From: Faecalibacterium prausnitzii
Lineage (GTDB): Bacteria; Bacillota; Clostridia; Oscillospirales; Ruminococcaceae
NCBI RefSeq assembly: GCF_003287405.1
Contig: NZ_PRLD01000007.1
Coordinates: 62,001 to 126,000 of the forward strand
Reading direction: 5' to 3'
Length of the DNA stretch: 64,000 bases
The translations under genes and the position numbers were made by a program. The notes under the pieces were generated by a model that saw nothing but the letters and a program-made list of their open reading frames with translations, had not been told where the DNA came from and did not search any database. Below, in pieces: positions 40,428 through 58,809 of this stretch. Position 1 is the stretch's first letter; each line of letters begins with the position of its first letter.

Positions 40428-40465
40428 AAAAATAGTACATGGAAGGATAACGGTTGGAAAGACGA

Positions 40466-40710: not shown

Positions 40711-41003
40711 ATAATAGGGTCAACCAAGAGAACCTACGATAATTAAAGGGTTTTGACGGCTTGAGTTGTCCTTCAAATGTTTTATTTGTTGAAAAACTGC
40801 AAGAAGCGGAAAATCCTGGGGGTTATATGTAGGAGGCTTTTGGAAGCTCTGTTTTGACCCACAAAAAGGAGCAACAAATAAAGATTGAAGGAGAGTTCAA
40901 GCCTACGGTGGATTGCCTTTGTGCGACCCGCCGTAGGTTTGTTTTTATCCATAAGGGAATAGATGCAACATTAGCGATAAAAATGTGAGGATGGAATAGA
41001 GGA
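40711..41003. other. Intergenic region with a transcription terminator
   Basis: After the pseudogene, a ribosome-site-like GTAGGAGG occurs near 40831 without an ORF. CCTACGG and CCGTAGG (40902-40939) form a terminator hairpin followed by GTTTTT. The glycosyltransferase cluster begins beyond it, so it must either have its own promoter or depend on read-through. Confidence 0.6.
40898..40947 (+). terminator. Terminator inside the exopolysaccharide locus
   Basis: AAGCCTACGG(TGG) ... (CCG)CCGTAGGTTT hairpin followed by GTTTTTAT, upstream of the main cluster; a possible site for antitermination control. Confidence 0.7.
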
Positions 41004-42236: not shown

Positions 42237-42257
42237 GAATACGAGGAAGTGCAGTTT

Positions 42258-42872: not shown

Positions 42873-42888
42873 TGTGAGGAGAAAAACG

Positions 42889-44046: not shown

Positions 44047-44055
44047 GAAAAGACG

Positions 44056-45414
44056 ATGAACATATTACATTATTCACTTGGCTTCCCTCCGTTCCGTCGA
44101 GGAGGAATGACACAGTATTGCTTGGATTTGATGATTGAACAGGCTAAAGTCGGGCATCAGGTTGGGCTTTTATGGCCGGGTAGACTATATGATCTTACTC
44201 CAAAGTCGAAAGTAAATCAAAAACAAAAATATAAGCTACAGAATGATTTGTATTGTACAAGTTATGAATTGTTAAATCCATTGCCGATACCCTTAATGGA
44301 TGGAATTCAAAATCCTGCGATGTACCTGGTTAAGAAAGAAAAAAAGGTATATACCGAATTCTTTCAAAAACACACATTTCAGGTGTTTCATATTCATACG
44401 TTTATGGGACTTCCTTCTGAACTAGTAGAAGCGGCGCATGAAGTGGGAGTTAAGACTGTATTTACTACTCATGATTATTTTCCGATATGCCCACGTTGCA
44501 ATTTATTCCATTCTGGAAAAGATTGTCAGGATGACAAAAAATGTTCCGATTGTGTAAGCTGCAATCAATATGGCTTGTCATTTAATAAAATGAGACTTTT
44601 TCAGTCAGAACTGTATAAAAGTGTTAAGGAAAGCTCTGTTATCAAGATGCTTCGTGCTAGACACAATAGGAAAATGTACGATGCAACAGAGCAGGTGATT
44701 GAATCAGAAATTATTGATGCGAAGAAGCAAAAGGAATATCAGAATTTACGCAACCGTAATATAGTTTTGCTTGAAAAAATGGACGTTGTTCATTTCAATA
44801 GCACAAATACGCTTTGTATTTATAAGAAGCGAGGATACGCCGGAGATAATGCGAAAGTAATATCAATATCCAATGGAGCAATTGCAGATCATAAAAGAAT
44901 ACGAAAAGTAGGTTCACCGGTAAGATTTGGCTATTTAGGACCTCTTACTACCCACAAGGGATATAACTTGTTTAAGAATGCATGCGATGCATTGTGGCAA
45001 AGTGGAGAACATAATTTTGAAGCCCACATTTTTGTTGAAATTAATAATCCACCGCCATATATGATATGTCACAAGCCATATTCTTACCAAGAACTTCCTA
45101 ATGTTATGGATCAATTTGATGTTTTGATCACTCCTAGTAAATGGGAAGAAACATTTGGATTCACTGTACTAGAGGCGTTGAGCTATGGAATTCCAGTAAT
45201 TGTGAGTGAAAAGGTTGGAGCAAAAGATTTGATTCTTGAGGGGAAAAACGGTTTTGTAATTGAGGGTTCTGTTCACAAGCTAAAAGATTGCTTAAAAAAA
45301 ATTATTGACAATCCGTCTATTGTCCGGCAAATGAATTCTTATACGGTGGAAAATTTCGATGTCAAAACAATGGCAGAACATGCACATGAAATTGAAAAAA
45401 TGTATAAAAAATAA
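44056..45414 (+). CDS. Glycosyltransferase family 4
   Basis: A 452-residue GT-B enzyme. It starts MNILHYSLGFPPFRRGGMTQYC, the classical acceptor-side loop, and contains TTHDYFPICPRCNLFHSGKDC, a cysteine-rich insert (C-P-R-C, D-C, C-SDC-VSC) around residues 145-175 that could bind zinc. The donor side reads RFGYLGPLTTHKGYNLF near 290 and TPSKWEETFGFTVLEALSYGIPVIVSEKVGA near 355-385. It is AT-rich and lies 9 bp after the previous gene. The linkage formed is unknown. Confidence 0.87.
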   Translation: MNILHYSLGFPPFRRGGMTQYCLDLMIEQAKVGHQVGLLWPGRLYDLTPKSKVNQKQKYKLQNDLYCTSYELLNPLPIPLMDGIQNPAMYLVKKEKKVYTEFFQKHTFQVFHIHTFMGLPSELVEAAHEVGVKTVFTTHDYFPICPRCNLFHSGKDCQDDKKCSDCVSCNQYGLSFNKMRLFQSELYKSVKESSVIKMLRARHNRKMYDATEQVIESEIIDAKKQKEYQNLRNRNIVLLEKMDVVHFNSTNTLCIYKKRGYAGDNAKVISISNGAIADHKRIRKVGSPVRFGYLGPLTTHKGYNLFKNACDALWQSGEHNFEAHIFVEINNPPPYMICHKPYSYQELPNVMDQFDVLITPSKWEETFGFTVLEALSYGIPVIVSEKVGAKDLILEGKNGFVIEGSVHKLKDCLKKIIDNPSIVRQMNSYTVENFDVKTMAEHAHEIEKMYKK

Positions 45415-45434
45415 GATTATAGTAGGAGACCAAA

Positions 45435-45965
45435 ATGTATAAAGGCGATAGAACAAGATGGCTTTCTGAAATGCGTCATCCCGAATTGGTTGCACAGTAT
45501 AGATTTGTGAGGGCAAAACGTCGTTGTGAATACTGGGCAGAAAAAAGTAAGATTGTCTATTTATGTGTCCGATTTATATACGAACACTATAAAGTGAAAT
45601 ACAATACAGATATTCCGGCTCGCTGTAAAATCGGGGGGGGGTTCAAAATACGGCATCTAGGAGGAATTGTTTTCAATCCAGGTGTTGAAGTAGGAAAAAA
45701 TGTAGATTGCCTTAATGGTGTTCTGCTTGGGCAGATTGACAGTGGTGCAAAAGCCGGTACGCCAATCATTGGAAATGATGTGTTTTTGGGCACAAACTCA
45801 ATTGTTGTAGGAAAAGTAAAAGTAGGAAATGATGTATTGATAGCTCCTGGCGCATATGTTAATTTTGATGTTCCTGACCATTCAATTGTAATCGGGAATC
45901 CGGGGAAAATAATACCGAAAGAAAATGCCACCGAGGGGTATATTGCATCACCTGTTGTAGAATAA
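45435..45965 (+). CDS. Serine acetyltransferase-like left-handed beta-helix protein
   Basis: A 176-residue acyltransferase of the CysE/LbetaH group, probably adding acetyl groups to the polysaccharide rather than to serine. After a helical N-terminus come hexapeptide turns: IGGGFKIRHLGGIVFNPGVEVGKNV, GAKAGTPIIGNDVFLGTNSIVVGKVKVGNDVLIAPGAYVNFDVPDHSIVIGNPGKII (cited in parts). A G9 tract at 45633-45641 encodes Gly67-Gly69 at the start of the helix; loss or gain of one G would remove the whole catalytic domain. In the present sequence the gene is in frame (ON). Confidence 0.86.
   Translation: MYKGDRTRWLSEMRHPELVAQYRFVRAKRRCEYWAEKSKIVYLCVRFIYEHYKVKYNTDIPARCKIGGGFKIRHLGGIVFNPGVEVGKNVDCLNGVLLGQIDSGAKAGTPIIGNDVFLGTNSIVVGKVKVGNDVLIAPGAYVNFDVPDHSIVIGNPGKIIPKENATEGYIASPVVE
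45633..45641 (+). repeat. Poly-G tract (G9) inside the acetyltransferase gene
   Basis: Nine consecutive G at codons 67-69 of 176, in an AT-rich gene. Currently in frame; a change by one base would frameshift before the catalytic helix. Confidence 0.85.
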
Positions 45966-46032
45966 ATACCAAATGAAGGATAAGCCGTATAAGTAAATAC
46001 GGTAGTCATTTGGCTTGAAGGAGAAACAGATT

Positions 46033-46974
46033 ATGCAGGGGAAAATTAGCATTATCGTTCCCGTATATAAAGTAGAAAAAGAACTGGATCGCTGTGTGCA
46101 GAGCTTGTTGAAACAGACATATAAAAATCTGGAAATCATTTTAGTTGATGATGGAAGCCCAGACCGTTGTCCAATACTTTGTGACCAGTATGCAATGGAA
46201 GATGAACGGATACGTGTAATTCACAAGAAAAATGGCGGACTTTCAGATGCGCGTAATGCTGGTTTGAATTTGGCAACAGGAGAATATGTCTTATATGTTG
46301 ATTCGGATGATTACATCGAATTGGATTCCTGTGAACGATTAATAAGTGCCACAAGTGATGGGCAAGTAGATATTGTCGTTGGAAACGCAATTATGGAGAA
46401 GCCGGATGGAAATGAGAAAATGATTCATTCTGCAACACCGGCGGGATTTATATATAGCGCAAAAGACTTTGTTGAAAAGGCAGTTTGTGAGTCTCAATGG
46501 TACGCGCCGGCATGGTTGAATATGTATAGGAGAAAATTCCTTCTTGATAACGAATTATATTTTAAAAAAGGTATTTATTTTGAGGATGTTCAAATGTTAC
46601 CGCGCGTTTTTTTGCCTGCCAAAAAAATTACATGTATAGATGAAACTTTCTATCATTATATCATTCGTGAAAATTCAATTATGACTTCGCAGAGGGATGA
46701 GAAAAAGAAAAATGACTCGGTTAAGAATTTGAAAGAATGGAAAAATCAATTTGATTTGTTAGATGATAAAGCATTACAGAAGTGTATGTATGGGATGCTT
46801 GTAAAGATGTACATACATGAATGCCAACTATATGATATACATGGTTTTGTCATTGATGGAATGGACTTTTCTTTTTGCTTTAAGAATGCATTGAACAAAA
46901 AGGAAAAAATTAAAACAGTTTTGTTTGGTAAGATGCCGAAGGCATATAGTATTTTAGCAAGATATCTTTCCTGA
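46033..46974 (+). CDS. Glycosyltransferase family 2
   Basis: A 313-residue GT-A enzyme using a nucleotide sugar. The N-terminal core is ISIIVPVYKVEKELDRCVQSLLKQTYKNLEIILVDDGSPD (cited in parts), with the acidic VDDGS near residue 40, then GGLSDARNAGLNLATGEYVLYVDSDDY containing the DSD/DxD metal site near 88-92, and YFEDVQMLPRVF near 185. I chose ATG 46033 (GGAG at 9 nt) over 46015. Most similar in layout to EpsJ/WcaA-type capsule transferases. Acceptor unknown. Confidence 0.88.
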   Translation: MQGKISIIVPVYKVEKELDRCVQSLLKQTYKNLEIILVDDGSPDRCPILCDQYAMEDERIRVIHKKNGGLSDARNAGLNLATGEYVLYVDSDDYIELDSCERLISATSDGQVDIVVGNAIMEKPDGNEKMIHSATPAGFIYSAKDFVEKAVCESQWYAPAWLNMYRRKFLLDNELYFKKGIYFEDVQMLPRVFLPAKKITCIDETFYHYIIRENSIMTSQRDEKKKNDSVKNLKEWKNQFDLLDDKALQKCMYGMLVKMYIHECQLYDIHGFVIDGMDFSFCFKNALNKKEKIKTVLFGKMPKAYSILARYLS

Positions 46975-47014
46975 AAATTCAAATTAGAAGGGAGTTCTAA
47001 AGGAGTATAAATGT

Positions 47015-48112
47015 ATGACAGTTTATATAGGACTTTTGTTATTTATTGCTATAGTAGCATTCATCAATAAGAAAACCAACTTATCGTCTAAATACTTTTT
47101 ATGGATTTCTTTCATGGCGATGACCCTTGTTCTTGGATTGCGTGGATCTACTGTCGGAGAAGATACAAAAATGTATCTATCTGTTGCGAATGCCGCATCA
47201 AGAATGTCATGGAAAGATATTTTTTCATCTTTTCCAACAACTGAATGGAACTTTATTTCTTATGGAATCTATGGTGGATATAGTGAACAGACAGAAACCA
47301 TATACATGGCATATAATAAGCTGATTATGTCTGTATTCCATAATCCACAATGGGTTCTAATTATAACTGCTGCTATTACATGCTATTTCATGATGCGATT
47401 TATTTGTAACAATGTAGAGCAGTATAGTGATTTGTATCTTGCAACGTATGTATATATGTGTGATTCCATATATATGAGTTCCTTTAATATTATGCGACAG
47501 GTTTTGGCTTTGTCAATTGCGGCGCAGGCTATTGAGGAAGTTAAACAAGAAAAGTATAAAAAAGCAATCGTGTGGGTTGCTATTGCGGCGTGTTTTCATC
47601 TGTCTGCACTATTGTTTGTGGCTGTGTTATTGATATATAAGCTGAAGGAAAAAAGAAAGTATTACAAATGGATAGTGTTAGGAGTATGTATTTTACCAGT
47701 CGCACTTCCCCTATTGACAACGATAGTTTCCAAGATTTTGCCGAAATATGTATCTTACCTCCAAACAAGTTTTTGGAGTGCAGAGGCGAAAGGTACACTT
47801 GTACTATGGGGAATTATAATAATTGCGATTCTGATTATGATAAGACGTAAAGATAATGATGAGAGAACATGGTGGCTGATTTATATGGCAACCATTTATA
47901 TTGGCGTTGAATTGATCGGAATGAGATATACGGTGATCTCTCGTGTTGCAATGTATTTCCGTATAGGATTGCCTCTCTTTTTCCCAACAATGAAAAAATA
48001 TTTTAACACAAACAGTAGACTAATATATGTTGGAGGCCTACTTTTTGTAATGACATGGTCGTTCTTAAGCTATGCAAGTTCACCGGCACGTTTGTATACT
48101 TTCGGATTTTAG
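47015..48112 (+). CDS. EpsG/Wzy-like polysaccharide polymerase
   Basis: A 365-residue integral membrane protein with about ten to eleven predicted spans. The EpsG family mark is the region GLRGSTVGEDTKMYL near residues 45-59, with an extracellular loop carrying conserved R-G-x-x-V-G-x-D-T. Later spans include SFNIMRQVLALSIAAQAIEE. Such proteins join repeat units outside the membrane in Wzy-dependent pathways. An AGGAG site lies 9 nt before ATG 47015. The presence of a second large membrane protein (48210) leaves open which one is the polymerase. Confidence 0.82.
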   Translation: MTVYIGLLLFIAIVAFINKKTNLSSKYFLWISFMAMTLVLGLRGSTVGEDTKMYLSVANAASRMSWKDIFSSFPTTEWNFISYGIYGGYSEQTETIYMAYNKLIMSVFHNPQWVLIITAAITCYFMMRFICNNVEQYSDLYLATYVYMCDSIYMSSFNIMRQVLALSIAAQAIEEVKQEKYKKAIVWVAIAACFHLSALLFVAVLLIYKLKEKRKYYKWIVLGVCILPVALPLLTTIVSKILPKYVSYLQTSFWSAEAKGTLVLWGIIIIAILIMIRRKDNDERTWWLIYMATIYIGVELIGMRYTVISRVAMYFRIGLPLFFPTMKKYFNTNSRLIYVGGLLFVMTWSFLSYASSPARLYTFGF

Positions 48113-48209
48113 AGTCATGTGATATGAGGGTGGAAAGAGTAATCTGATTTGGTAGAAGATTGAAACTACCGATGCTAATGAGTAAGGAAAGGTTTAAACG
48201 GTGTAGAAG

Positions 48210-49418
48210 GTGAAACTAGATATAAATTATTTTGCTGTTCAAATAATGTGGCTTGCCTTATTTTTGCGAATCACAGCAGTTAATGAAATCACTTGGCTTC
48301 TGATTGAGCTAATGGGCTGTCTGTTTTGTACAGGGTATGTTATTAAAAATATAAAATGTATCAATAGATCAACACTCATCTGGGGGGGGGTACTGGCGTT
48401 TTCCTATTTGATTTCTTCGGCAGTAAATAGGCAATATAATGGATTATATGTTACATTTTCAGGTGTGATTTATGCATGGAAAATGATACTGTATATTGCT
48501 GTTCCTTGGATTTCAGTAATGAAAAGAGGAAGTAGGAAGATTGCAAAAGTATCAAGGGACTGCTTGCTTCTATATTGGGTTCCGTCTGTGATAACAGTAC
48601 TGATTCAAGGAAGGAATGTTGTAGATAATGCAAACAATATATACTTTATTGGAAACAAATTTAATGTGGCTTACCTAAATGTGATATTGCTTTGTTTCAA
48701 TTTGTATCTGATGAGGCGTGATAACAACGAACGACAACGGTTTGTGCTTTCACTAAAAATACGCCATAGTAGTGTGTTGAACGGTTTATTCTATTTCCTA
48801 ATCATCTATTTGGATCTATACATGAAGGCATATACTGGATTGTTTATGATTATTTTTGTCTTACTCTTGTCTTTTATTTCAAGGCTATTCAAGTTTAAAA
48901 TAAACAGACGCTGGACAGGATTTTTGAACTTTATCAGCAGCCCGATTGTTCTTGTAGTCTCAGTTATTCTTTCGGGAATTGTGACGGTTGCACTTGATGC
49001 TATTATGAGTCTTCCCACTATTGCCACGTATCTAGGAACGATAGGTAAAACAGGAAATATTCTATCTCGAACTTTGATATACAAGAATCTGGGTGAGATT
49101 ATATCAAAAAAGCCTTGGATTGGATATGGATATGGTACAGCAGTAGTTTCACGATATTTTGGTCCTAATGCACAAAATGGATTAGCACAGGTGGCAATTC
49201 AGGCTGGCATCATTGGAGTTGTGCTGATGCTGCTTATAACATATCATTGCGGTAAAATGGGGAAGAACTCAGGAGGAAGAACAGCTCCCTTCCTATTTGG
49301 CGTGTATGCTTTCATTCTTTCGGCAACTGTTGAAATCACGCTGGGCGGCTCTTTCTTGATACTGTTAGCGTTTTATTGTGTATGTGGGTGGGAGAGAAAA
49401 GTTAAGGAGGAAACCTAA
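48210..49418 (+). CDS. O-antigen ligase/polymerase-like membrane protein
   Basis: A 402-residue protein with about ten predicted membrane helices. The long periplasmic-type loop and the segment TLIYKNLGEIISKKPWIGYGYGT near residues 285-310 resemble the Wzy_C/O-antigen ligase superfamily, where R-x-x-x-W and GxGxGT are typical. The GTG start at 48210 lacks a well-placed ribosome site, so the start is uncertain. A G9 tract at 48382-48390 (codons 58-61) sits early in the gene, so slippage would abolish the protein. It ends directly before the next ATG. Confidence 0.78.
   Translation: MKLDINYFAVQIMWLALFLRITAVNEITWLLIELMGCLFCTGYVIKNIKCINRSTLIWGGVLAFSYLISSAVNRQYNGLYVTFSGVIYAWKMILYIAVPWISVMKRGSRKIAKVSRDCLLLYWVPSVITVLIQGRNVVDNANNIYFIGNKFNVAYLNVILLCFNLYLMRRDNNERQRFVLSLKIRHSSVLNGLFYFLIIYLDLYMKAYTGLFMIIFVLLLSFISRLFKFKINRRWTGFLNFISSPIVLVVSVILSGIVTVALDAIMSLPTIATYLGTIGKTGNILSRTLIYKNLGEIISKKPWIGYGYGTAVVSRYFGPNAQNGLAQVAIQAGIIGVVLMLLITYHCGKMGKNSGGRTAPFLFGVYAFILSATVEITLGGSFLILLAFYCVCGWERKVKEET
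48382..48390 (+). repeat. Poly-G tract (G9) inside the ligase/polymerase-like gene
   Basis: Nine consecutive G around codons 58-61 of 402 (Trp-Gly-Gly-Val), in an AT-rich gene, currently in frame. Confidence 0.85.
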
Positions 49419-50393
49419 ATGAATGAACTCGTAAGCGTTATAGTTCCTATATATGGCGTAGAGGATTATCTCAGCAAATGCGTTGATTCTATCATCAACC
49501 AGGCATATAAGAATTTAGAGATTATACTGGTTGATGATGGAGGAAAAGATAAATGCCCAGAAATATGCGATGAATATGCAGGGAAAGATAGTAGGATAAA
49601 GGTGATTCATAAAGAGAATGGTGGATTGTCTGATGCCAGAAATACCGGAATCGACATTGCAAAGGGAGAATACCTTGTATTCATAGATAGTGATGACTGG
49701 GTAGAAACCACGATGGTAGAGCATTTACTGGATGCCTGTAAGAAGTACAATGTTAAACTGGCGGCCTGTGGCAGGTATATCACTGATGGAACAGTCATAA
49801 ATGGAACAGCTTACGAAGGAACTGAAGGAGTTTACTCATCGGAAGAGGCACTGAATGAGATTCTCTCTGGAAAGTCACTTGATGTTGCAGCGTGGGATAA
49901 GATTTATGTCCGGGAATTATTTGATGATATTCGTTACCCGGTAGGAGAAAACAATGAGGATATAGCAGTGTTCTATAAAATAGTGGATGCTGCTGGAAAA
50001 GTTGCTCATTGTGGAACAAATGAATACTATTATCGAAGCAGACCCGGAAGTATTACAAAACTTAAGTATAGTATCGATGCAAGAAAGGTAATAGAAAAGA
50101 ATTTGAATTCTATTGAAGCCTTTATCGCAGAGAAATACCAAGGGTGCGGAAAGGCATTTAACCGATATAAGGCTGTGAACATCTACGCACTATTGAACAA
50201 GTATATTAAGTGTAAAGGAACAGGAAAAGCACAAGAGTATGAACATTTAATGGCAGAATTTCGGAAATGTAGGCGGGATTTCTTCAGAGATGAGCAAACG
50301 CCTAAAAAAGAAAAGATGATTGCTTCTTTGATCCTCTTACATCTTTATGATCCATATTTGAGAGTGAAAGAAAAAATCAAAGGATATAAATAA
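49419..50393 (+). CDS. Glycosyltransferase family 2
   Basis: A 324-residue GT-A enzyme. VSVIVPIYGVEDYLSKCVDSII at the N-terminus, VDDGGKDKCPEICDEYAGKDSRIKVIHKENGGLSDARNTGID (cited in parts) and the metal-binding FIDSDDWVE near residue 88 define the fold; VAAWDKIYVRELFDDIRYP and ENNEDIAVFYKI near 155-185 form the acceptor side. It overlaps nothing but starts immediately after the stop of the previous gene, with AAGGAGG inside that gene, so translation is coupled. Closely related in sequence to 46033-46974. Confidence 0.88.
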   Translation: MNELVSVIVPIYGVEDYLSKCVDSIINQAYKNLEIILVDDGGKDKCPEICDEYAGKDSRIKVIHKENGGLSDARNTGIDIAKGEYLVFIDSDDWVETTMVEHLLDACKKYNVKLAACGRYITDGTVINGTAYEGTEGVYSSEEALNEILSGKSLDVAAWDKIYVRELFDDIRYPVGENNEDIAVFYKIVDAAGKVAHCGTNEYYYRSRPGSITKLKYSIDARKVIEKNLNSIEAFIAEKYQGCGKAFNRYKAVNIYALLNKYIKCKGTGKAQEYEHLMAEFRKCRRDFFRDEQTPKKEKMIASLILLHLYDPYLRVKEKIKGYK

Positions 50394-50441
50394 CATAAGG
50401 ACGAGGCAAGTTTTGGGTGTTAGAGAGGTGGCTGAAAGTCG

Positions 50442-51413
50442 ATGAATTATTTGGATGATCAGACCATAAAGGTCAGTATTATAATCCCAGTATACAATTG
50501 CGAGAATTTACTAAGACGAACAATTGACTGTGTACTTAGCCAGTCTTATTCTAATATCCAATTGATTCTCATAGATGACGGATCAATAGATAACTCGCCA
50601 AACATATGTGATGAATATGAATCACAGGATTCACGTGTAAATGTAGTTCATCAAGAAAATGCGGGAGCATCCGCGGCTCGAAATACTGGATTAAAATGGG
50701 TACAGGGCGATTATGTTGCATTTATCGATGCAGATGACATGGTTTCAAAGCAGTATATAGAAATACTTCTATATTGTGCCTTGTCAACAAAAACGAGGAT
50801 TTCAACGTGCGAGGCTTTTTATTGCAGTGAAAATGAATATAAACAGTATCCGATTGAAACCCTCAGACCAAGAGTTATAAAGGTTCCGGATTATAATTTT
50901 ATGGAAGCATGGTCTCATGCTACAGTTTGGGGAGCATTGTTTAAGAAAAATCTTTTAACGGATCTGATGTTTGACACAGAAATTTCAGTGGGAGAGGATT
51001 CGCTGTTCTTTGCAAACGCTTTAGCTCAGTGTGACAGTGTTTCGTATATCTCAAATAAATTGTATTACTACTTTATATATGATCAATCAGTTTCACACGG
51101 CATTTATAATGAAAAGAGACTGTCTGAGTTTACGGCATGGCAAAAGATCAACACACTTGTCGCCCCGATAAGTGAGACTCTTGATGAATCTTCTAAGGCG
51201 AGGATGGTTCGTCATGCAATCGAAAGATATAAGGAAGTTTTAAGACAAGATGTGCCAAACGAGGACATCTTGATCTTTTTCCGAAATATGATACTGAAGA
51301 ATAAAGATTCCTATCTGAAGCTAAATTCGTCACAGAAGGCTAAGATAGAAATGTATTTGATATTAAAAACACCGAAGATGTATGAAATTGCTTACAGAAA
51401 GCATAAGAGTTAA
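50442..51413 (+). CDS. Glycosyltransferase family 2
   Basis: A 323-residue GT-A enzyme with VSIIIPVYNCENLLRRTIDCVL, LIDDGSIDNSPNICDEY, NAGASAARNTGLKWVQGDYVAFIDADDMVS (metal site DADD near residue 95) and a later GEDSLFFANALAQ acidic motif near 190. An AGAGAGG site lies about 11 nt upstream of the ATG. It belongs to the same run of AT-rich genes. The acceptor and sugar are unknown; the C-terminal 130 residues are helical as in capsule transferases. Confidence 0.88.
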   Translation: MNYLDDQTIKVSIIIPVYNCENLLRRTIDCVLSQSYSNIQLILIDDGSIDNSPNICDEYESQDSRVNVVHQENAGASAARNTGLKWVQGDYVAFIDADDMVSKQYIEILLYCALSTKTRISTCEAFYCSENEYKQYPIETLRPRVIKVPDYNFMEAWSHATVWGALFKKNLLTDLMFDTEISVGEDSLFFANALAQCDSVSYISNKLYYYFIYDQSVSHGIYNEKRLSEFTAWQKINTLVAPISETLDESSKARMVRHAIERYKEVLRQDVPNEDILIFFRNMILKNKDSYLKLNSSQKAKIEMYLILKTPKMYEIAYRKHKS

Positions 51414-51438
51414 GAATTAGAATGGTAGGAAAAATAAG

Positions 51439-52572
51439 ATGAACGAAAAGATTGGCATATTAACATTTCATAAATCAATTAATTATGGCTCTGTCTTGCA
51501 ATCGTGGGCTCTTTCAAGAGTTATTTCGAAGAGATTTGTTGTAGAAATTATTGATTATGAACCTCAGAATTACGAATTTCTCTATGCAAATTACCGGCAA
51601 TGGAACAGCTGGAATAACATAAAATACAATCTAAAAAGAATGCCATTATCTTCAGCATTAAATAATCAACGGCAACGGTTCAAAAAATTCAGAGACGAGC
51701 AACTACCGTTAAGCAGAAAGAAATATAATTATAACAACGGTTGTGATATAAAAGAAGAATATAAGGGAATCGTTGTAGGAAGTGATCAGGTATGGAATAT
51801 TCGTGCCAAAGATTGCGATCCTATCTTTTTTCTTCCATTCAATTATTCGGGAAACAAAGTTTCTTATGCCTGTAGCATAAATGATACAGACTATACCGAA
51901 AAGAATCTTCCGTCAAACCTGGCAAGTGAAATTTGTGATTTTGATTTTATTTCCATAAGAGAGGAATCAGGAAAAAATAAACTTGAACAATTCATTGCAA
52001 AACAGAAAAAAGTTTACACATTATTAGATCCGACGCTCCTGTGTAATAGCTCAGAGTATGACAGTTTGTTAAATGATCGAATTGTAGATGGAAAATATAT
52101 TTTCTTATACAACGTCTGGACGAGTGAAGCGGGTATTCAGGCTGCAAAGTTTCTGTCCGAAAAGTTGAATATGCCTGTTTATACTATTATGACAGCATCA
52201 AATGTAAAGGAGATAAACCTACTGAAGAAAAGTGGAATATTGGTAGATACAGTCAGAACATCGCCATCTGATTTCCTAAATTTCTTTAAATATGCGTCTT
52301 ATATTGTAACGGAATCATTTCATGGGACTGCCTTCTCCTTAATATTTGAGAAGCCTTTTGTTTGTGTCAGCAACCGCACAAATGATGAACGATTGAATAA
52401 TATTCTAACGCTTGTTGGGCTTAAAGACCGCTATATGAAGTTGGGTGAACTGCAGACTTATGACCTGAAACAAGAGATCGATTACGAGATCGTTACTGAA
52501 AAGAAGGCGAAAAGAGCAGGGGAATGCATAGAACTCCTCTATAAAGCAATTGGGGGTGAAGCTAAATCATGA
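51439..52572 (+). CDS. Polysaccharide pyruvyl transferase family protein
   Basis: A 377-residue protein of the PS_pyruv_trans family, which adds ketal-linked pyruvate from phosphoenolpyruvate to sugar residues. The start GILTFHKSINYGSVLQSWALSRVI (residues 5-28) with the N-x-G-x-x-L-Q pattern is characteristic, as are VVGSDQVWN near 113, YACSIN near 143, and YIVTESFHGTAFSLIF near 290. Pyruvylation would make the polymer acidic. The gene overlaps the flippase gene by 4 nt (ATGA), so the two are translationally coupled. Confidence 0.88.
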   Translation: MNEKIGILTFHKSINYGSVLQSWALSRVISKRFVVEIIDYEPQNYEFLYANYRQWNSWNNIKYNLKRMPLSSALNNQRQRFKKFRDEQLPLSRKKYNYNNGCDIKEEYKGIVVGSDQVWNIRAKDCDPIFFLPFNYSGNKVSYACSINDTDYTEKNLPSNLASEICDFDFISIREESGKNKLEQFIAKQKKVYTLLDPTLLCNSSEYDSLLNDRIVDGKYIFLYNVWTSEAGIQAAKFLSEKLNMPVYTIMTASNVKEINLLKKSGILVDTVRTSPSDFLNFFKYASYIVTESFHGTAFSLIFEKPFVCVSNRTNDERLNNILTLVGLKDRYMKLGELQTYDLKQEIDYEIVTEKKAKRAGECIELLYKAIGGEAKS

Positions 52573-54095
52573 AAATGGAAAAGACCAAAAATGCTTCAAG
52601 AAATATTGTCTTTGGCGTCAGCTTGAAAGTGTACCAGATTCTTCTCCCGTTTATTATGCGTACAGTTATGATGTACACAATAGGGGTAGAATATCTTGGA
52701 TTAAATAGCTTGTTCACTTCCGTACTTCAGGTGTTAAATCTGGCCGAATTAGGTGTTGGAAGTGCAATGGTATTTAGTATGTACAAGCCAATTGCGGAAG
52801 ATGATTCTATTACTATTTGTGCGTTGATGAAGCTATATAGAACATACTACAGAGTGATTGGAGGTATCATTCTTGTAGTGGGTCTTCTATTAACCCCATT
52901 TATGCCTAAATTGATATCGGGGCCAATACCCGAGAACATGAATATATATTTCCTGTATCTGCTCAATTTATTGGCAACGGTATTAACTTATTGGCTTTTT
53001 GCTTACAGAAACAGTGTTCTGCAGGCTCATCAAAGAAACGATCTGATTAGTAAGGTCACACTTGTCACGGACACAGTAAAATATCTTCTGCAGATTGCTG
53101 CACTTGTAGTACTTCATGATTATTATTGCTATGTAATAGTACTCCTGCTGACACAGGCATTAAACAATGTATTAACAGCGATAATAGCAAAAAGAGTATT
53201 TCCTCAGTATAATCCAGAAGGCAAACTGGCCCAGAATGAAATTAAACAGATCAATGGAAAAATCCGGGATTTGTTCACTTCTAAATTGGGATATACGATT
53301 GTCAGTTCGGCAGATACCATTGTTATCTCAGCATTTTTAGGCTTGACAGTACTGGCACAGTACCAGAATTATTATTACATTATGAGTTCTATCATCGGGT
53401 TTATGTCAATCATATATGCTTCCATTACTGCCGGAGTTGGAAACAGTATGATTACGAAGTCAGTTGACCAGAACTACAGAGAGTATTGTGTTTTTTCTTT
53501 ACTCGTTTCCGTTGTGAGTGGAATTTGTTGTGCTTGTTTTTTATGCCTCTATCAGCCCTTTATGACATTGTGGATGGGAGAAAATCTGCTTCTGCCTTTT
53601 TCACTTGTGGTTTTATTGTGTGTGTATTTCTGGATATATGAATACATTATGATGGCCAGTGTTTATAAGGATGCTGGAGGAATTTGGCATCAAGACCGAT
53701 TTAGACCATTGATATCAGGTGTTGTAAATCTCGCCTTGAATTTGGCGACAGTAAGATTTATTGGATTATATGGCATTGTCCTATCAACTATAGTTAGTAT
53801 GGCAATCGTTAGCGCACCATGGATAACCTCAAATATTTTCAAATTAATATTTAAAAAGAATCCAGTTAGCTATGTTGTGAAAATAGTTTATTATGTTTTT
53901 TCAACAGTCTTAGCATCAACAGCCGCATATGTTTTGACAAGCCTTATTTCTATTAATGGGGGGATCGGTTTAATAATTAAGGCAATTGTGTGTGCTGCTT
54001 CATCTGTTTTCGTTATGGTTATTCTGCTTTGCAGGATGAAAGAGTTTTCTGATGCGTTATATCTTATTGCAAGGATGTTCCATCTTGAAAAATAA
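52569..54095 (+). CDS. Polysaccharide repeat-unit flippase (Wzx-like)
   Basis: A 508-residue membrane protein with about 12-14 predicted spans of the MOP exporter superfamily. It begins NASRNIVFGVSLKVYQILLPFIMRTVMMYTIGVEYLGLNSLFTSVLQVLNLAELGVGSA (cited in parts), the typical Wzx first helices, and later has SSADTIVISAFLGLTVLAQYQNYY near residue 250. It moves undecaprenyl-linked repeat units across the membrane for polymerisation. A G6 run at 53958-53963 encodes Gly-Gly near codon 464. Its presence makes this a Wzx/Wzy-type pathway. Confidence 0.9.
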   Translation: MKMEKTKNASRNIVFGVSLKVYQILLPFIMRTVMMYTIGVEYLGLNSLFTSVLQVLNLAELGVGSAMVFSMYKPIAEDDSITICALMKLYRTYYRVIGGIILVVGLLLTPFMPKLISGPIPENMNIYFLYLLNLLATVLTYWLFAYRNSVLQAHQRNDLISKVTLVTDTVKYLLQIAALVVLHDYYCYVIVLLLTQALNNVLTAIIAKRVFPQYNPEGKLAQNEIKQINGKIRDLFTSKLGYTIVSSADTIVISAFLGLTVLAQYQNYYYIMSSIIGFMSIIYASITAGVGNSMITKSVDQNYREYCVFSLLVSVVSGICCACFLCLYQPFMTLWMGENLLLPFSLVVLLCVYFWIYEYIMMASVYKDAGGIWHQDRFRPLISGVVNLALNLATVRFIGLYGIVLSTIVSMAIVSAPWITSNIFKLIFKKNPVSYVVKIVYYVFSTVLASTAAYVLTSLISINGGIGLIIKAIVCAASSVFVMVILLCRMKEFSDALYLIARMFHLEK

Positions 54096-54164
54096 CTAAA
54101 AAAATGAACTGAATGATTTTTAATGATGAATTCAGATACGCGCTTACAGGGAGGAATGCTATAA

Positions 54165-55280
54165 ATGAGAACGGTATGTGATAGAGGGCGATGTACTGGA
54201 TGCAGGGTCTGCGTTAATGTATGTAAAAAAGACGCGATTTTTATCAAGGATTCACTTTCTGCAATGAATGCAGTGATTGATGAAGTTAAATGTGTTAATT
54301 GCAAAATGTGTGAGAAAGTATGTCCAAATAATAATCCTGTTGATAAGGTGCAACCTCAAAAATGGTATCAGGGTTGGGTATGTAAAACAAGAGAACAATC
54401 TTCTTCTGGTGGGGTGGCGGCTGGTTTGACGCAGAACTTCATACAAAACGGTGGTTATGTTGCGGCTTGTCTTTTCAAAGATGGTGAATTTGTATTTGAT
54501 ATAACGAATGATTTGGATTATGCAAGGAAGTTTGCAGGATCAAAATATGTTAAAAGCAACCCCAAAAATATTTATTCAAAAATCTATGAGAGATTAAAAC
54601 AGGGAGATAGGGTGTTGTTTATTGGTCTGCCTTGTCAAGTGGCAGCACTGAATAACTACATAAAAGATAAGAAAAATCTGTATACTGTTGATCTTATCTG
54701 TCATGGCTCCCCATCTCCAATTATTTTGGAAAAATATCTAGCTGAGAATTATGTTGACATAAGAAAAATTAAAGATTTGAATTTTAGGAATAAAGATGGA
54801 TTTGGACTAAGGTCTGGATATAAAAGAATATCTTTTGATGATGGTTCAGATCTGTATACTTTTGCATTTCTGACATCGCTTGATTATACTGAAAATTGTT
54901 ATTCATGTCGATATGCGACTTTGGACAGAGTTTCAGATATTACATTGGGAGATTCATGGGGAAGCGAATTAGAGGCAGAAGAGCAAAAAAAGGGAATTTC
55001 ATTAATTCTGTGTCAAACGGAAAAAGGAAAAGAATTATTGAAAAATACGAAAATTGAATTAAGAGATGTAAATTTGAATAAAGCTGTAAAGGCTAATCAT
55101 CAGTTGAGCTACCCGTCAAAAATGCCAACTGAGAGAAAGATATTTTTCAAAAACATAGATAAGGGATTTTATTATGCTATCTCACGGTGTCACCCGAAAA
55201 TGTATTATATCCGTCGGTTGAAATATATTCTTCATAAAGCAAAAATCATCCGGGGGGGGGGCAGTAGAGATAAAAATTGA
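54165..55280 (+). CDS. Coenzyme F420 hydrogenase/dehydrogenase beta-like Fe-S protein
   Basis: A 371-residue protein with two N-terminal [4Fe-4S] ferredoxin motifs, CDRGRCTGCRVCVNVCKK and CVNCKMCEKVCPNNNP (residues about 4-60). The FrhB N- and C-terminal domains follow (SSGGVAAGLTQNFI near 82, FIGLPCQVAALNNYI near 150, CHGSPSPIILEKYL near 180, GDSWGSE near 265). Such proteins recur in polysaccharide clusters with pyruvyltransferases; the redox role there is unknown, since F420 is not expected in Firmicutes. A G10 tract near the 3' end (codons 363-366) could switch the last residues. Confidence 0.85.
   Translation: MRTVCDRGRCTGCRVCVNVCKKDAIFIKDSLSAMNAVIDEVKCVNCKMCEKVCPNNNPVDKVQPQKWYQGWVCKTREQSSSGGVAAGLTQNFIQNGGYVAACLFKDGEFVFDITNDLDYARKFAGSKYVKSNPKNIYSKIYERLKQGDRVLFIGLPCQVAALNNYIKDKKNLYTVDLICHGSPSPIILEKYLAENYVDIRKIKDLNFRNKDGFGLRSGYKRISFDDGSDLYTFAFLTSLDYTENCYSCRYATLDRVSDITLGDSWGSELEAEEQKKGISLILCQTEKGKELLKNTKIELRDVNLNKAVKANHQLSYPSKMPTERKIFFKNIDKGFYYAISRCHPKMYYIRRLKYILHKAKIIRGGGSRDKN
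55252..55261 (+). repeat. Poly-G tract (G10) at the end of the FrhB-like gene
   Basis: Ten consecutive G at codons 363-366 of 371. With G9 the frame would continue about 15 codons to a stop near 55308; with G11 a TAG would follow at once. Slippage would therefore swap the C-terminal tail. Confidence 0.85.
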
Positions 55281-55368
55281 TATGTATGATATGACATATA
55301 AGAATTAAAAAATTCAACTATAGAGTTATTACATAATTGTTTTTAATGAAAAGAGAGAAAAAGTCTAA

Positions 55369-56271
55369 ATGAACACAACATTACTTATCATGGCGGCCGG
55401 AATCGGTAGCCGATTTGGAACAGGAATAAAACAGTTGGAGCCGGTCGATGATGCTAATCATATCATCATGGACTACTCAATCCATGATGCGATTGAGGCT
55501 GGCTTCAATCATGTAGTATTTATCATCCGTAAGGATATCGAGAAAGTGTTCAAAGAGGTTATCGGTGATCGCATTGCCTCCATTTGCTCTTCTCATAACG
55601 TAACAGTAGACTACGCTTTCCAGGATATCGACGATATTCCAGGAGAACTTCCGGAAGGCCGTACAAAACCGTGGGGAACCGGTCAGGCCGTGCTTGCTGC
55701 TAAAAATGTGATTGATACCCCGTTCATTGTGATCAATGCAGACGATTACTACGGTAAGGAAGGTTTCAAGGCTGTTCATGAGTATCTGATGAATGGCGGC
55801 AAGTCCTGCATGGCTGGTTTTGTTCTGAAGAACACGCTGTCTGATAACGGTGGTGTGACTCGCGGCATCTGCAAGATGGACGAGAATGGAAACTTGACTG
55901 AGGTTGTGGAAACCAAGAACATCGTGAAGACTGCAGATGGAGCAGAGGCCGACGGTGTGGCTGTTGATGTGAATTCTCTTGTTTCCATGAATATGTGGGG
56001 ACTGACTCCTGATTTTCTGGATGTGTTGGAAGATGGCTTCAAAGAGTTTTTCGAGAAAGAAGTACCGAGCAATCCTCAGAAAGCCGAGTATCTGATCCCA
56101 ATCTTCATCGGTGAACTGCTGAATGAAGGTAGGATGTCTGTGAAGGTTCTGAAGACCAACGACACCTGGTACGGCATGACCTACCATGAAGATGTCGCAG
56201 CAGTAAAGGACAGCTTCAAGAAAATGTTGGCGGATGGTGTGTACAAGGCTGATTTGTTTTCAGACTTGTGA
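55369..56271 (+). CDS. Sugar nucleotidyltransferase family protein
   Basis: A 300-residue NTP-transferase-fold protein. The nucleotide loop is LLIMAAGIGSRFGTGIKQLEPV at residues 4-25, slightly off the usual GGxGTRL form, and VINADDYYGKEGF near 122 supplies the metal-binding aspartate. It probably activates a sugar-1-phosphate or acts on a related donor for the polymer. Codon use is less AT-rich than in the preceding genes, and an 88-bp gap separates it from them. Direct neighbours downstream are an HDV-like ribozyme and a membrane-protein gene. The substrate is unknown. Confidence 0.82.
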   Translation: MNTTLLIMAAGIGSRFGTGIKQLEPVDDANHIIMDYSIHDAIEAGFNHVVFIIRKDIEKVFKEVIGDRIASICSSHNVTVDYAFQDIDDIPGELPEGRTKPWGTGQAVLAAKNVIDTPFIVINADDYYGKEGFKAVHEYLMNGGKSCMAGFVLKNTLSDNGGVTRGICKMDENGNLTEVVETKNIVKTADGAEADGVAVDVNSLVSMNMWGLTPDFLDVLEDGFKEFFEKEVPSNPQKAEYLIPIFIGELLNEGRMSVKVLKTNDTWYGMTYHEDVAAVKDSFKKMLADGVYKADLFSDL

Positions 56272-56277
56272 TATACT

Positions 56278-56293
56278 GGGAACAATAGTTCCC
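56278..56293 (+). promoter_or_regulatory. Hairpin directly upstream of ribozyme copy 1
   Basis: GGGAAC-AATA-GTTCCC, ending 3 nt before the predicted cleavage site. The second ribozyme has GGGAGC-GTGA-GCTCCC at the same place, a compensatory change. Confidence 0.7.
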
Positions 56294-56296
56294 TAC

Positions 56297-56376
56297 GCTG
56301 CTCGAAACTTTGCACGCCTCTTCGTGGTGAGTAGCAGGCAACACAGCAATACGATACTGTGGCTAAGAATGCAGAG
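56297..56376 (+). ncRNA. HDV-like self-cleaving ribozyme, copy 1
   Basis: All parts of the HDV double pseudoknot can be placed. P1 is GCTGCTC (56297-56303) with GAGTAGC (56329-56335), 7 bp. P2 is CTTTGCA (56308-56314) with TGCAGAG (56370-56376). P3 is GCC/GGT with the 7-nt loop TCTTCGT. P1.1 uses GG at 56337-56338, and P4 is CACAG/CTGTG (56342-56361). J4/2 is GCTAAGAA with the predicted catalytic C at 56363. Cleavage is predicted just 5' of G56297. It lies between the nucleotidyltransferase gene and the membrane-protein gene. Confidence 0.85.
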
Positions 56377-56401
56377 AAAAAATAATAAGGAAAAATATAA
56401 G

Positions 56402-57319
56402 ATGGGCTATAGGTATCATAATTATACGGATACGGCAGAACTTGAAGACATTGGAATGACACTGGCTAACTTTCTTCGGTACGCAATGATGGCTTTTCGT
56501 CCAGCAGAAACGCTACTGATATGTACTGTACTTACGCTATTAGTTGCAATTCCATGTGTGCTGATTCTTATAAACAGTGAGAGTAGCAGCACAAGGTATG
56601 CGATTGCAATGGCAATCGTGACAGGTGTCATTGCCTCTGGATTGGTGTCCCTTACCTTGGAAATGTGCAATAATTATAGGCATAATAGAAAGAGATTTGT
56701 TGTTCTTAACTATTACCTGCATATAGTCAGTTCTTATGAGGAATATATAAATTGTTCGAGTCATGGCAAATATGAAAAATACAATAAAGATGCTTGCTAT
56801 TATTTGAGCTTTCAGAAAACGGGAGAGATTTCAAATCGTCTGCACGCGGTTGCAGAACTGGTTTTAATAGTTGCACCGCCGGTCGATGAAGCGTTGGAAA
56901 AGGGAAGCGAATATTTAGCTGTAAAAGAAATGCAGTATGCAACGCGTGTAAAAGATGCGGCAGAAGATATTTTAGAAATCGCAAAAAATCAGATTTTCGA
57001 ACATATGAAAAACCATAACTACAGCTTTTTTGACTGCCTTGAGGAAAAATATAGGGATAAACTTGTTGCGTATTCAGATCATGTCGAGATTCGTATGACT
57101 GATAAAAACCTAGAAAGCGTCGTATGTGACTACATGCTTAACAATTTTGATGAGCAGACTAGAGATGTAAAGGCTAAACTTGTAGCCAAACTTAGTAACT
57201 TTGATTATGCAATGCACGAGTTGCAGAAGATGATGCGGCTTGAACCCGTGATGTACGAAAATCTTATTCCGATGGAGGAGAAATTTAAAATGGACGATGC
57301 GAAGCTGAATAGTAAATAG
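56402..57319 (+). CDS. Hypothetical two-helix membrane protein between two ribozymes
   Basis: A 305-residue protein I do not recognise. After a polar N-terminus there are two predicted membrane helices (residues about 40-60, LLICTVLTLLVAIPCVLILI, and about 68-90, YAIAMAIVTGVIASGLVSLTLEM). A long cytoplasmic, helix-rich domain follows to the end. The start at 56402 is an ATG with a weak AAGGA site 25 nt after ribozyme copy 1. Upstream in-frame ATGs fall in the ribozyme or the previous gene. The gene is bracketed by two HDV-like ribozymes, so its mRNA would be cut out as a single cistron. A defence or signalling role is conceivable but unproven. Confidence 0.6.
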   Translation: MGYRYHNYTDTAELEDIGMTLANFLRYAMMAFRPAETLLICTVLTLLVAIPCVLILINSESSSTRYAIAMAIVTGVIASGLVSLTLEMCNNYRHNRKRFVVLNYYLHIVSSYEEYINCSSHGKYEKYNKDACYYLSFQKTGEISNRLHAVAELVLIVAPPVDEALEKGSEYLAVKEMQYATRVKDAAEDILEIAKNQIFEHMKNHNYSFFDCLEEKYRDKLVAYSDHVEIRMTDKNLESVVCDYMLNNFDEQTRDVKAKLVAKLSNFDYAMHELQKMMRLEPVMYENLIPMEEKFKMDDAKLNSK

Positions 57320-57324
57320 TATTT

Positions 57325-57344
57325 ATGGGAGCGTGAGCTCCCAT
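57325..57344 (+). promoter_or_regulatory. Hairpin directly upstream of ribozyme copy 2
   Basis: ATGGGAGC-GTGA-GCTCCCAT, ending 1-3 nt before the predicted cleavage site; the counterpart of 56278-56293 with compensatory base changes. Confidence 0.7.
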
Positions 57345-57345
57345 T

Positions 57346-57418
57346 GCTGCTCGAAACTTTGCACACCTCTCCGTGGTGAGCAGCAGGCAACGCTGATAAG
57401 GCGGCTAAGAATGCAAAG
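57346..57418 (+). ncRNA. HDV-like self-cleaving ribozyme, copy 2
   Basis: P1 is GCTGCTC (57346-57352) with GAGCAGC (57378-57384). P2 is CTTTGCA (57357-57363) with TGCAAAG (57412-57418). P3 is ACC/GGT with loop TCTCCGT. P1.1 pairs CC (57371-57372) with GG (57386-57387), followed by CAAC, and P4 is CGC/GCG (57391-57403). J4/2 is GCTAAGAA with the predicted catalytic C at 57405. Differences from copy 1 keep every helix paired. It lies 34 nt before the AbiH-like gene. Confidence 0.87.
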
Positions 57419-57451: not shown

Positions 57452-58414
57452 ATGAAGAAGCTGTATATTATTGGAAACGGATTCGACATTGCTCACGGTT
57501 TAGATACAGCATATTGGGATTTTAGGTCTTTTTTATTTGACAACTATCCTCAGTTCCTCGAAAACTTTGAGTACTGGTATAATGTTGGCCGAGTTGATTT
57601 CTCGAGCCCTAGGCTTTCGGCAAATGCACGTCAGCAATGGGAAGAAAGAACAAAAGTCAAGCTGTGGTATGAATTGGAAAATGTTATGGGCTGTCCAAAC
57701 ATTTATGAGATGATGGATCGTTCAGAGTCTGTTTTAAATGATATGGACTTAGACAGTGGGCTTGTTGGAATCGAAAGCACTATGAATTCGTACTGGCAAG
57801 AGCAGTATGGATATATTAATAAGTTTGAGCAGTATGTAAAAGAATGGATTGAAACCATAGATACAACGGACATTGAGCCGAAAAGAATGGCATTGGTGGA
57901 GAGTACAGACTACTTTTTGAATTTTAATTATACGGATACTCTAGAGACTGTTTACAAGATAGAGGATGTTCTCCATATTCATGGTGGAGTCAGTTCAGTA
58001 TCTGATATTGATCCCATTATGGGACACTGTAATTATCAGGATATTGAGGAGCATCGTAGATTGGCAGGAGAGGCCGATGAGGTACTTAATGAAGGAGAAG
58101 CCAGCATTCATCGGGCGATTGCAAACTATCTTCGGTCAATATACAAAGATACTAACTCGATAATCAGTTTATCGGAGTCATTTTGGGAGAAACTTAGTGA
58201 TATTGATGCGGTTGTAGTTGTTGGTTGGGCAGCAGGAAAAGCTGATTGGCCGTATCTGAGAAAAATTCAAAAGTCAATCAAAGATGATACAAAGTGGCAC
58301 GTATATTATTATGATAACAAAGCCCTGGCGGCATTAAGTAAAGCAATGCAGGAAGAAGGCATTGAAGGGAAATATGAAGTGACATATATGCAGACAAGAG
58401 AGTTTTGGGATTGA
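57452..58414 (+). CDS. AbiH-family protein
   Basis: A 320-residue protein that fits the bacteriophage abortive-infection AbiH family. It has the N-terminal signature KKLYIIGNGFDIAHGLDTAYWDFRSFL (residues 2-28), a central D-FLNFNYTDTLETVY motif near residue 155, the HIHGG motif near 177 and VVVGWAAGKADWPYL near 265. AbiH members are reported to block phage multiplication by an unknown route. The start at 57452 has a GAGGAG site; an HDV-like ribozyme ends 34 nt upstream. It sits at the island's distal end, a typical position for a defence cargo. Confidence 0.82.
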   Translation: MKKLYIIGNGFDIAHGLDTAYWDFRSFLFDNYPQFLENFEYWYNVGRVDFSSPRLSANARQQWEERTKVKLWYELENVMGCPNIYEMMDRSESVLNDMDLDSGLVGIESTMNSYWQEQYGYINKFEQYVKEWIETIDTTDIEPKRMALVESTDYFLNFNYTDTLETVYKIEDVLHIHGGVSSVSDIDPIMGHCNYQDIEEHRRLAGEADEVLNEGEASIHRAIANYLRSIYKDTNSIISLSESFWEKLSDIDAVVVVGWAAGKADWPYLRKIQKSIKDDTKWHVYYYDNKALAALSKAMQEEGIEGKYEVTYMQTREFWD

Positions 58415-58482: not shown

Positions 58483-58809
58483 ATGCCCAGAACCAAAGGT
58501 AGTAAGAACAAACCGAAAGTTACCAACAACTTTGCATCCCAGATTGCAGAGAAGAAGGGATTCATCGCTTCCCTGACTTTTGAAATCACTTCCATCACCG
58601 CCAACATTGACACTTTGAAAGCTGACCTGAAAGAGAAGAAGACTGCTCTGAAGAAGGCCGAAAAAGAAGTGGCATCCCTGGAAGCGAAGAAGGTAAAGGC
58701 AGATGCTAAGGCAGCAGAATCCGCAAAGAAAGCTGAAGCAGAGGACGTGCTGAAAAAGCTGCTGGCCAGCGGCGTGAGTGCAGACGAGATACTCGAAAAA
58801 CTAAAATAA
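58483..58809 (+). CDS. Small coiled-coil protein with an AT-hook-like N-terminus
   Basis: A 108-residue basic protein without an assigned family. The first residues MPRTKGSKNKPK resemble an AT-hook (R-x-K-G-S-K-N). Residues about 25-85 are a strongly predicted coiled coil with heptads rich in Lys, Ala and Glu (LKADLKEKKTALKKAEKEVASLE cited in part), and the end GVSADEILEKL is a short helix. It has its own promoter, an AAAGGCGG ribosome site and a terminator. A nucleoid-associated or H-NS-like silencer role for the AT-rich island would fit, but this is inference only. Confidence 0.65.
   Translation: MPRTKGSKNKPKVTNNFASQIAEKKGFIASLTFEITSITANIDTLKADLKEKKTALKKAEKEVASLEAKKVKADAKAAESAKKAEAEDVLKKLLASGVSADEILEKLK

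Follow-up and report, generated by a model that had tools for sequence, protein, structure and literature searches.

Hairpins abutting HDV-like ribozymes suggest a self-processing operon junction in Faecalibacterium prausnitzii and other Clostridia

The 64,000-nt stretch of Faecalibacterium prausnitzii DNA analyzed here (the window) carries two hepatitis delta virus (HDV)-like ribozymes on its plus strand. They flank a membrane-protein gene that lies between an exopolysaccharide gene cluster and an AbiH-family abortive infection gene (Table 1). A hairpin stands directly before the predicted cleavage site of each ribozyme, and most of 81 copies of the ribozyme collected from Clostridia show the same arrangement, usually between genes reading in the same direction. 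From these sequence features we infer that hairpin and ribozyme form one module, which probably acts as a self-processing operon junction.

Two full-length ribozymes and their relatives

In a cmscan search against Rfam at the gathering threshold, both ribozymes match family RF02682 (HDV-F-prausnitzii, cut-off 44 bits) over model positions 1–74, its full length. The original prediction, made from the sequence alone, had placed two HDV-like modules at exactly these coordinates and had proposed a covariance search as a check; with both modules above the cut-off, that search bears it out. No other RF02682 matches occur in the whole assembly. Read by eye, the helices are those that had been described: P1 is GCTGCTC/GAGTAGC (one G-U pair) in ribozyme 1 and GCTGCTC/GAGCAGC in ribozyme 2, P2 is CTTTGCA/TGCAGAG (one G-U pair) and CTTTGCA/TGCAAAG, P3 is GCC/GGT and ACC/GGT, and P4 is CACAG/CTGTG and CGC(T)/(G)GCG. 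J4/2 is GCTAAGAA in both and includes the catalytic C56363 and C57405. Differences between the copies are tolerated as G-U pairs, and both versions of P4 form a helix. The prediction saw in this strong evidence of selection on structure. Two copies alone are weak evidence, and the strength comes from the comparison of 81 copies.

That collection comprises 32 copies from searches of the genus and family, 31 of a further 32 that exact-pattern scans of GTDB species genomes and IMG/VR turned up, and 18 from a sample of the class and a sample of the family of genome G711. P1 forms at least 6 of its 7 pairs in 80 of the 81 copies and all 7 in 67, its strands occurring in 27 distinct pairs; every copy has a paired P3; and a P4 of at least three pairs together with the C motif is present in 74, in 38 distinct versions. 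P2 has at least five perfect pairs in 66 of 81, a rough figure, because some copies, among them both of those in the window, are misread by the automatic parse. In copies from Coprococcus comes, a Pullilachnospira metagenome-assembled genome and Hominisplanchenecus (L086:5991-6109, L095 and the first copy of L110), an extra hairpin lies between the 5′ strand of P1 and P2, and the Rfam match consequently begins 21 nt late.

A hairpin at the predicted cut

The hairpins formed no part of the original prediction, and they lie outside the Rfam model because the RF02682 match begins at the first ribozyme base. Under a strict rule (a stem ending 0–3 nt before the predicted cut, with a score of at least 15), 69 of the 81 copies carry such a hairpin, compared with 5.4% of 23,068 positions drawn at random from the same loci and 62 of 1,620 shuffled upstream stretches. 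Folding positions −40 to −1 with RNAfold gave a pass for 77 of the 81 copies against 23% of 4,858 windows, a background that itself included ribozyme positions. Averaged over the first 32 copies in 4-nt steps, the hairpin score peaks at the cleavage site. Four copies (L101, L110:2471 and those of genomes G613 and G904) fail both tests, and eight others fail the strict rule only, several of them, by eye, from longer loops or stems.

The 69 passing hairpins represent 59 distinct sequences. By eye they fall into several unrelated stem classes, including GGGAGC, CCGTGTG, GCCATG, CCGGGGACGG, CCCCGCC and others, and many stems have 8–13 pairs. A terminator-like U-tract is present in only one of the 69, that of L111, whose ribozyme P1 is damaged. 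In one class, which comprises 22 distinct sequences, the stem pairs in 99.2% of cells and both partners have changed at two pairs, a count as high in 4 of 500 shuffles; hairpin 1 itself has one G-C to A-U double change relative to the commonest pair of its class. Since the class varies little, this apparent covariation is suggestive, not strong.

Position between co-directional genes

Co-directional frames were taken to be those of at least 90 codons, or running off the contig, that end no more than 140 nt upstream or start no more than 150 nt downstream of the ribozyme. Such a frame is found upstream of 72 of the 81 copies, downstream of 75 and on both sides of 69. Judged by eye, most upstream partners in Faecalibacterium are surface-sugar genes or VanZ, while the downstream partners are glmM, a nucleotidyltransferase-like (NTP transferase) gene or variable cargo. 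In six divergent copies, which score below the Rfam cut-off but keep P1 and P2 paired, a Sortase-domain gene lies downstream in every case; upstream of these copies, SpaA/LPXTG pilins were identified in all four genes scanned of the six.

The cargo includes homologues of AbiH, Pycsar (PycTM with PycC), Schlafen AlbA_2 with a caspase, an ATPase and Toprim-like pair, RES with PLD, AbiGii, KwaA of Kiwa and a PDC-S45 protease. We compared 30 cargo proteins, hand-chosen as the first or second genes after ribozymes with glmM and exopolysaccharide genes excluded, with 20 random window proteins. PADLOC matches at E ≤ 1e-3 were found for 14 of the 30 and 1 of the 20 (Fisher p = 0.0016), and at E ≤ 1e-10 for 7 and 1, respectively (p = 0.12). 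Several of the weak matches are to generic domains. The enrichment in defence genes is significant at the loose cut-off and not significant at the strict one, and is thus not firm.

A possible route to separate messages

One of two roles originally suggested for the ribozyme pair, the cutting of a polycistronic mRNA into separate messages, is the best supported, with the hairpin at the cut and 69 of 81 copies between co-directional frames. The window agrees with this: in a terminator scan, the sole plus-strand terminator-like site from the NTP transferase gene to the AbiH gene lies inside the membrane-protein gene. RNA polymerase would read on from the exopolysaccharide operon into the cargo genes, and each HDV-like ribozyme would cut 5′ of its own first G during transcription in vivo. 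The upstream RNA would be left with a stem-loop 1–3 nt from its new 2′,3′-cyclic-phosphate end; this structure should hold off 3′ exonucleases in much the way of a terminator hairpin. Downstream, the RNA would start with a 5′-hydroxyl (5′-OH) and the knotted ribozyme, and should be protected from the 5′-end-dependent decay of RNase J. In the case of the window, cleavage at both sites would free a 1,049-nt membrane-protein message with a ribozyme at its 5′ end and a hairpin at its 3′ end, and the AbiH message would start with ribozyme 2, so that the genes could be stabilized and expressed separately. Hairpin and ribozyme ends should resist the RNase J-type enzyme and polynucleotide phosphorylase (PNPase), and the genome holds genes matching PNPase and TIGR00649, the RNase J-type family.

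The glmM genes of the fetched loci offer a comparison. Nine lie after a ribozyme, the ninth being the first, truncated copy in L050. For eight ribozyme-bearing glmM genes the previous frame is 135–174 nt away, and seven of the eight lack a terminator call, the call of the eighth lying inside the upstream coding sequence. Seven glmM genes have no ribozyme: L045 and L157 show both a terminator-like site and an extended −10 element, L112 a terminator call only, and L035 and L104 neither, while L049 and L099 directly abut the upstream gene. In these small numbers, the ribozyme accompanies close upstream genes rather than glmM as such.

Several observations weigh against an operon junction. Only two of those seven ribozyme-less glmM genes have both a terminator-like site and an extended −10 element, and a strong terminator-like site follows only one of five ribozyme-less NTP transferase relatives. 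The other ribozyme-less NTP transferase loci gave one weak terminator call and one inside the next gene (the gene end was resolved in 10 of 30 loci), and two weak calls came from NTP transferase loci with a ribozyme further downstream. In 14 of the 81 copies an antisense frame of at least 150 amino acids (aa) starts no more than 140 nt upstream, as either a divergent gene or a coding shadow. The promoter-like TATACT directly precedes hairpin 1 and leaves room for separate initiation; RNA begun there would lack most of the 5′ arm of hairpin 1. Eleven of the 81 copies score under the Rfam cut-off, two of the collection's members that pass with RNAfold (L111:2532 and L110:5174) are damaged ribozymes, and the counts are not independent because the copies share ancestry. 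The presence of glmS or glmM beside several copies fits metabolite control too, and the effect of the upstream RNA on the predicted pairing of P1 suits a folding helper equally well.

More tentatively, hairpin and HDV-like ribozyme together could be a general, protein-free maker of mRNA 3′ ends within the operons of Clostridia, as well as a seam for defence genes. This would amount to a “ribozyme terminator” past which transcription continues. It would serve where co-transcribed genes have to be stable independently of each other, and would keep a polysaccharide operon apart from phage-defence cargo, or pilin apart from sortase. Because the module would insulate whatever follows it, it could offer a plug-in seam for defence genes behind cell-surface-layer operons. 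Operon splitting would also explain the intergenic siting of the ribozyme and would tie it to how anti-phage genes are laid out in gut commensals. That a hairpin is conserved at the cut across several unrelated classes and varied operons points to a directly testable role, RNA-only splitting with protected ends.

Alternative roles for the module

The hairpin might only keep upstream RNA off P1, the ribozyme being a processing element of the 5′ untranslated region and the upstream 3′ end irrelevant. Upstream structure in genomic HDV has been described as shielding P1 from the RNA before it, and replacing the native 40 nt upstream by shuffled sequence lowers the predicted pairing probability of P1 (0.639 with the native and 0.543 with the shuffled sequence, the native value being higher in 58 of 81 copies; Wilcoxon p = 1.4e-5). 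However, P1 is predicted to pair best without any upstream RNA (0.726). Stems of 8–13 pairs ending 0–3 nt from the cut exceed what insulation should need, and the upstream co-directional frame in 72 of 81 copies also speaks against a pure folding helper, which we regard as unlikely.

A switch in which glucosamine-6-phosphate activates the ribozyme and so tunes the downstream gene seems distinctly improbable. The published F. prausnitzii copy reportedly adjoins glmM and is activated by this metabolite, which is made by glmS. Besides the nine glmM genes that follow a ribozyme, a glmS-like gene precedes the (first) ribozyme at L093:2977-3786, L104:2866-4740 and L112:2287-4152, with a SIS-domain fragment at L130:1658-1981; the SIS domain was found in all four of these loci and the glutamine amidotransferase domain in L104 and L112. 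The window cluster, moreover, makes cell-surface sugars. Against such a switch, glmM of the same genome lies on a different contig, where it has a terminator-like site and an extended −10 element, and no Rfam match at E 0.1 was found in 4,380 bases around the gene; both ribozymes of this genome serve other genes, and neither lies in a glmM leader. Six divergent copies precede sortase genes, one low-scoring candidate stands beside phage-type genes, and the switch does not require the conserved upstream hairpin. Genome G029 has two glmM genes (L044 and L045): one has a ribozyme in its leader, the other a terminator-like site and extended −10 element, and this pair provides a natural comparison for metabolite regulation. 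In PMC10919898, the role named for a bacterial HDV-like ribozyme is metabolite-dependent regulation, cited there as a possibility for one such ribozyme.

The original prediction had also suggested that the ribozyme pair marks a mobile cassette. As a statement about element ends this did not hold: the hairpin–ribozyme module is the only long repeat common to both borders, and the ribozyme occurs also as single and triple copies. A mobile cassette with defined ends was rejected on the lack of terminal repeats beyond the module and of any recombinase among the window proteins scanned near it, a scan that covered part of the neighbours. What stands is a ribozyme that is also a seam for recombination. 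In 6 of 13 hand-picked pairs of loci with homologous cargo, identity is 87–98% over the 45 nt that follow the ribozyme and 46–68% over the 60 nt ahead of it; of the remaining pairs, five are similar on both sides and two on neither. Chimeric half-ribozymes (L111:2532 and L110:5174), a duplicated ribozyme–glmM fragment in L050 and tandem ribozymes around the tail of an NTP transferase gene in L093 and L104 indicate exchange at the module. Five ribozyme-less NTP transferase homologues were examined as empty sites, and their insertion borders were not readable because the genes downstream are unrelated.

Taken to its limit, such exchange could mean that the module is kept as a short shared homology for swapping (defence) cargo after polysaccharide operons, with RNA cleavage secondary. 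The pairs that agree only after the ribozyme, the chimeras, the L050 duplication and the recurrent 108-aa right-hand border described below are in its favour. Homology alone, however, needs no conservation of P1, P3, P4 and J4/2, which are kept in nearly all copies; the module is the sole long repeat, no recombinase was found among the window proteins scanned, and all six pilin/sortase copies lie between neighbours of one kind. We consider this role highly improbable. Circularization of the mRNA through RtcB ligation of the 5′-OH and 2′,3′-cyclic-phosphate ends is also unlikely, because RtcB (PF01139) has no match in this genome and is rare in the genus (2 of 31 genomes, compared with 9 of 14 control genomes).

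Comparison with known systems

The window ribozymes share P1–P4 and J4/2 with HDV-F-prausnitzii (drz-Fpra). The family itself was already known; its surroundings here look new, with an NTP transferase, a two-transmembrane (two-TM) protein and AbiH as neighbours, plus an abutting hairpin, in place of the glmM context reported for the published copy. Among open-licence papers in PubMed Central we found none that describes an upstream hairpin as conserved or that links HDV-like ribozymes to defence or sortase genes, which is no proof of absence.

Theta ribozymes, as presented in PMC10879173, set HDV-like cleavage at the 3′ ends of tRNAs. Like them, the window modules would cut directly 3′ of a folded RNA (a tRNA there, a hairpin here) and fix the 3′ end of that RNA. 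Theta ribozymes are minimal, without P4, nearly all from phages and often adjacent to tRNAs, whereas the type in the window has P4, is found almost only on bacterial contigs and follows hairpins. In the window, tRNA matches were found at 24042-24112 and 35457-35540 only.

An intrinsic terminator, or a 3′-protecting stem-loop, likewise ends the upstream transcript in a GC-rich stem-loop; here a ribozyme takes the place of the U-tract. An ordinary terminator was rejected for the window, where neither hairpin is called by the scan and the stems are followed by TAC-GCTGC and T-GCTGC.

HDV-like ribozymes at the 5′ ends of retrotransposons are mentioned in PMC8256844. No reverse transcriptase was seen among the window proteins scanned, a scan that included no dedicated search. 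The retrotransposon ribozymes likewise give a defined 5′ end by cleavage. The contig of L101, with a ribozyme copy at 5302-5377, has group II intron matches at L101:80-153 and 1580-1800.

Genes around the two ribozymes

Table 1. Features in and around the two hairpin–ribozyme modules of the window.
Feature	Coordinates	Strand	Evidence and remarks
Exopolysaccharide gene cluster ahead of ribozyme 1	39753..56271	+	Pfam; extent inferred from consecutive plus-strand open reading frames
Nucleotidyltransferase-like (NTP transferase) gene	55369..56271	+	PF00483, 8e-7, above cut-off
TATACT, extended −10-like (TTGTGATATACT), possible internal promoter	56272..56277	+	Sequence; overlaps NTP transferase stop codon
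Hairpin 1, GGGAAC-AATA-GTTCCC	56278..56293	+	Ends 3 nt before predicted cleavage; −9.2 kcal/mol, z −3.45
HDV-like ribozyme 1	56297..56376	+	RF02682, 71.2 bits, E 3.8e-11; predicted cleavage 5′ of G56297; catalytic C56363
Membrane-protein gene, 305 aa, two-TM	56402..57319	+	Two hydrophobic segments
Hairpin 2, ATGGGAGC-GTGA-GCTCCCAT	57325..57344	+	Ends 1 nt before predicted cleavage; −14.4 kcal/mol, z −5.0
HDV-like ribozyme 2	57346..57418	+	RF02682, 77.4 bits, E 1.4e-12; predicted cleavage 5′ of G57346; catalytic C57405
AbiH-family abortive infection gene	57452..58414	+	PF14253 8e-49; PADLOC AbiH 2.2e-32
108-aa lysine-rich coiled-coil-like gene, MPRTKGSKNKPK...	58483..58809	+	Clusters with 8 other loci

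The exopolysaccharide cluster encodes a sugar transferase, glycosyltransferases, EpsG, Wzy_C-like, polysaccharide pyruvyl transferase, flippase-like and FrhB-like proteins and the NTP transferase. Ten of its genes, plus the NTP transferase gene, have Pfam matches, those to Wzy_C and Polysacc_synt being below the curated cut-offs. The NTP transferase stop codon lies 25 nt upstream of ribozyme 1, and the genus matches to this gene of at least 92% identity all lie about 2.5 kb or less from a ribozyme. The extended −10-like motif TATACT before hairpin 1 is not called by the promoter scan; TTGTGATATAMTGGGA is present in 40 of 156 loci, many of these overlapping.

After ribozyme 1 come the membrane-protein gene, ribozyme 2, the AbiH gene, whose ATG is 33 nt downstream of ribozyme 2, and the 108-aa gene. 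The membrane-protein gene between the ribozymes and the AbiH gene after them had both been recognized in the original prediction, and the hydrophobic segments and the Pfam and PADLOC matches agree with those assignments. The membrane protein has no Pfam match above the cut-off and no PADLOC match at E 0.01, and its structure as predicted from one sequence is uninformative (mean pLDDT 37.5). Within 197 family genomes, this one included, AbiH has matches in three and the membrane protein in two; neither has a match in IMG/VR. The 108-aa gene has Pfam matches below cut-off only and recurs after the cargo in nine ribozyme loci (in one as a 79-aa frame), where it forms a right-hand border.

Distribution of the ribozyme

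At E ≤ 0.001, RF02682 was found in 11 of 31 genomes of the genus (26 copies), in 8 of 396 genomes of the family sample, in 5 of 391 of the class sample and in 16 of 397 of the sample of the family of G711; the last three counts include repeats of earlier genomes and were obtained with stricter search filters. Named hosts include Blautia schinkii, Coprococcus comes, Coprococcus catus, Clostridium fessum, Gemmiger formicilis and several Faecalibacterium.

The exact-pattern scan of IMG/VR yielded one contig, and no ribozyme match was found in plasmids. Phage records gave six partial matches. Both of the records examined, MT836086.1 and MT835848.1 (L155 and L156), contain the ribozyme module and are unannotated, UNVERIFIED records of “Bacteriophage sp.”; L156 also carries an NTP-transferase gene and, by eye, a VanZ-like frame, and it is thus possible that this record contains bacterial contamination. 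A phage or plasmid origin was rejected on these counts. A low-scoring HDV-like candidate of 32.9 bits with an abutting hairpin and indistinct P2 and P4, L124:1501-1588, lies between a phage-type single-stranded DNA-binding gene and a DNA polymerase A gene.

Elsewhere in the window, positions 31489-31596 show a strong match to the IMPDH RNA motif (RF02994, 117.5 bits).

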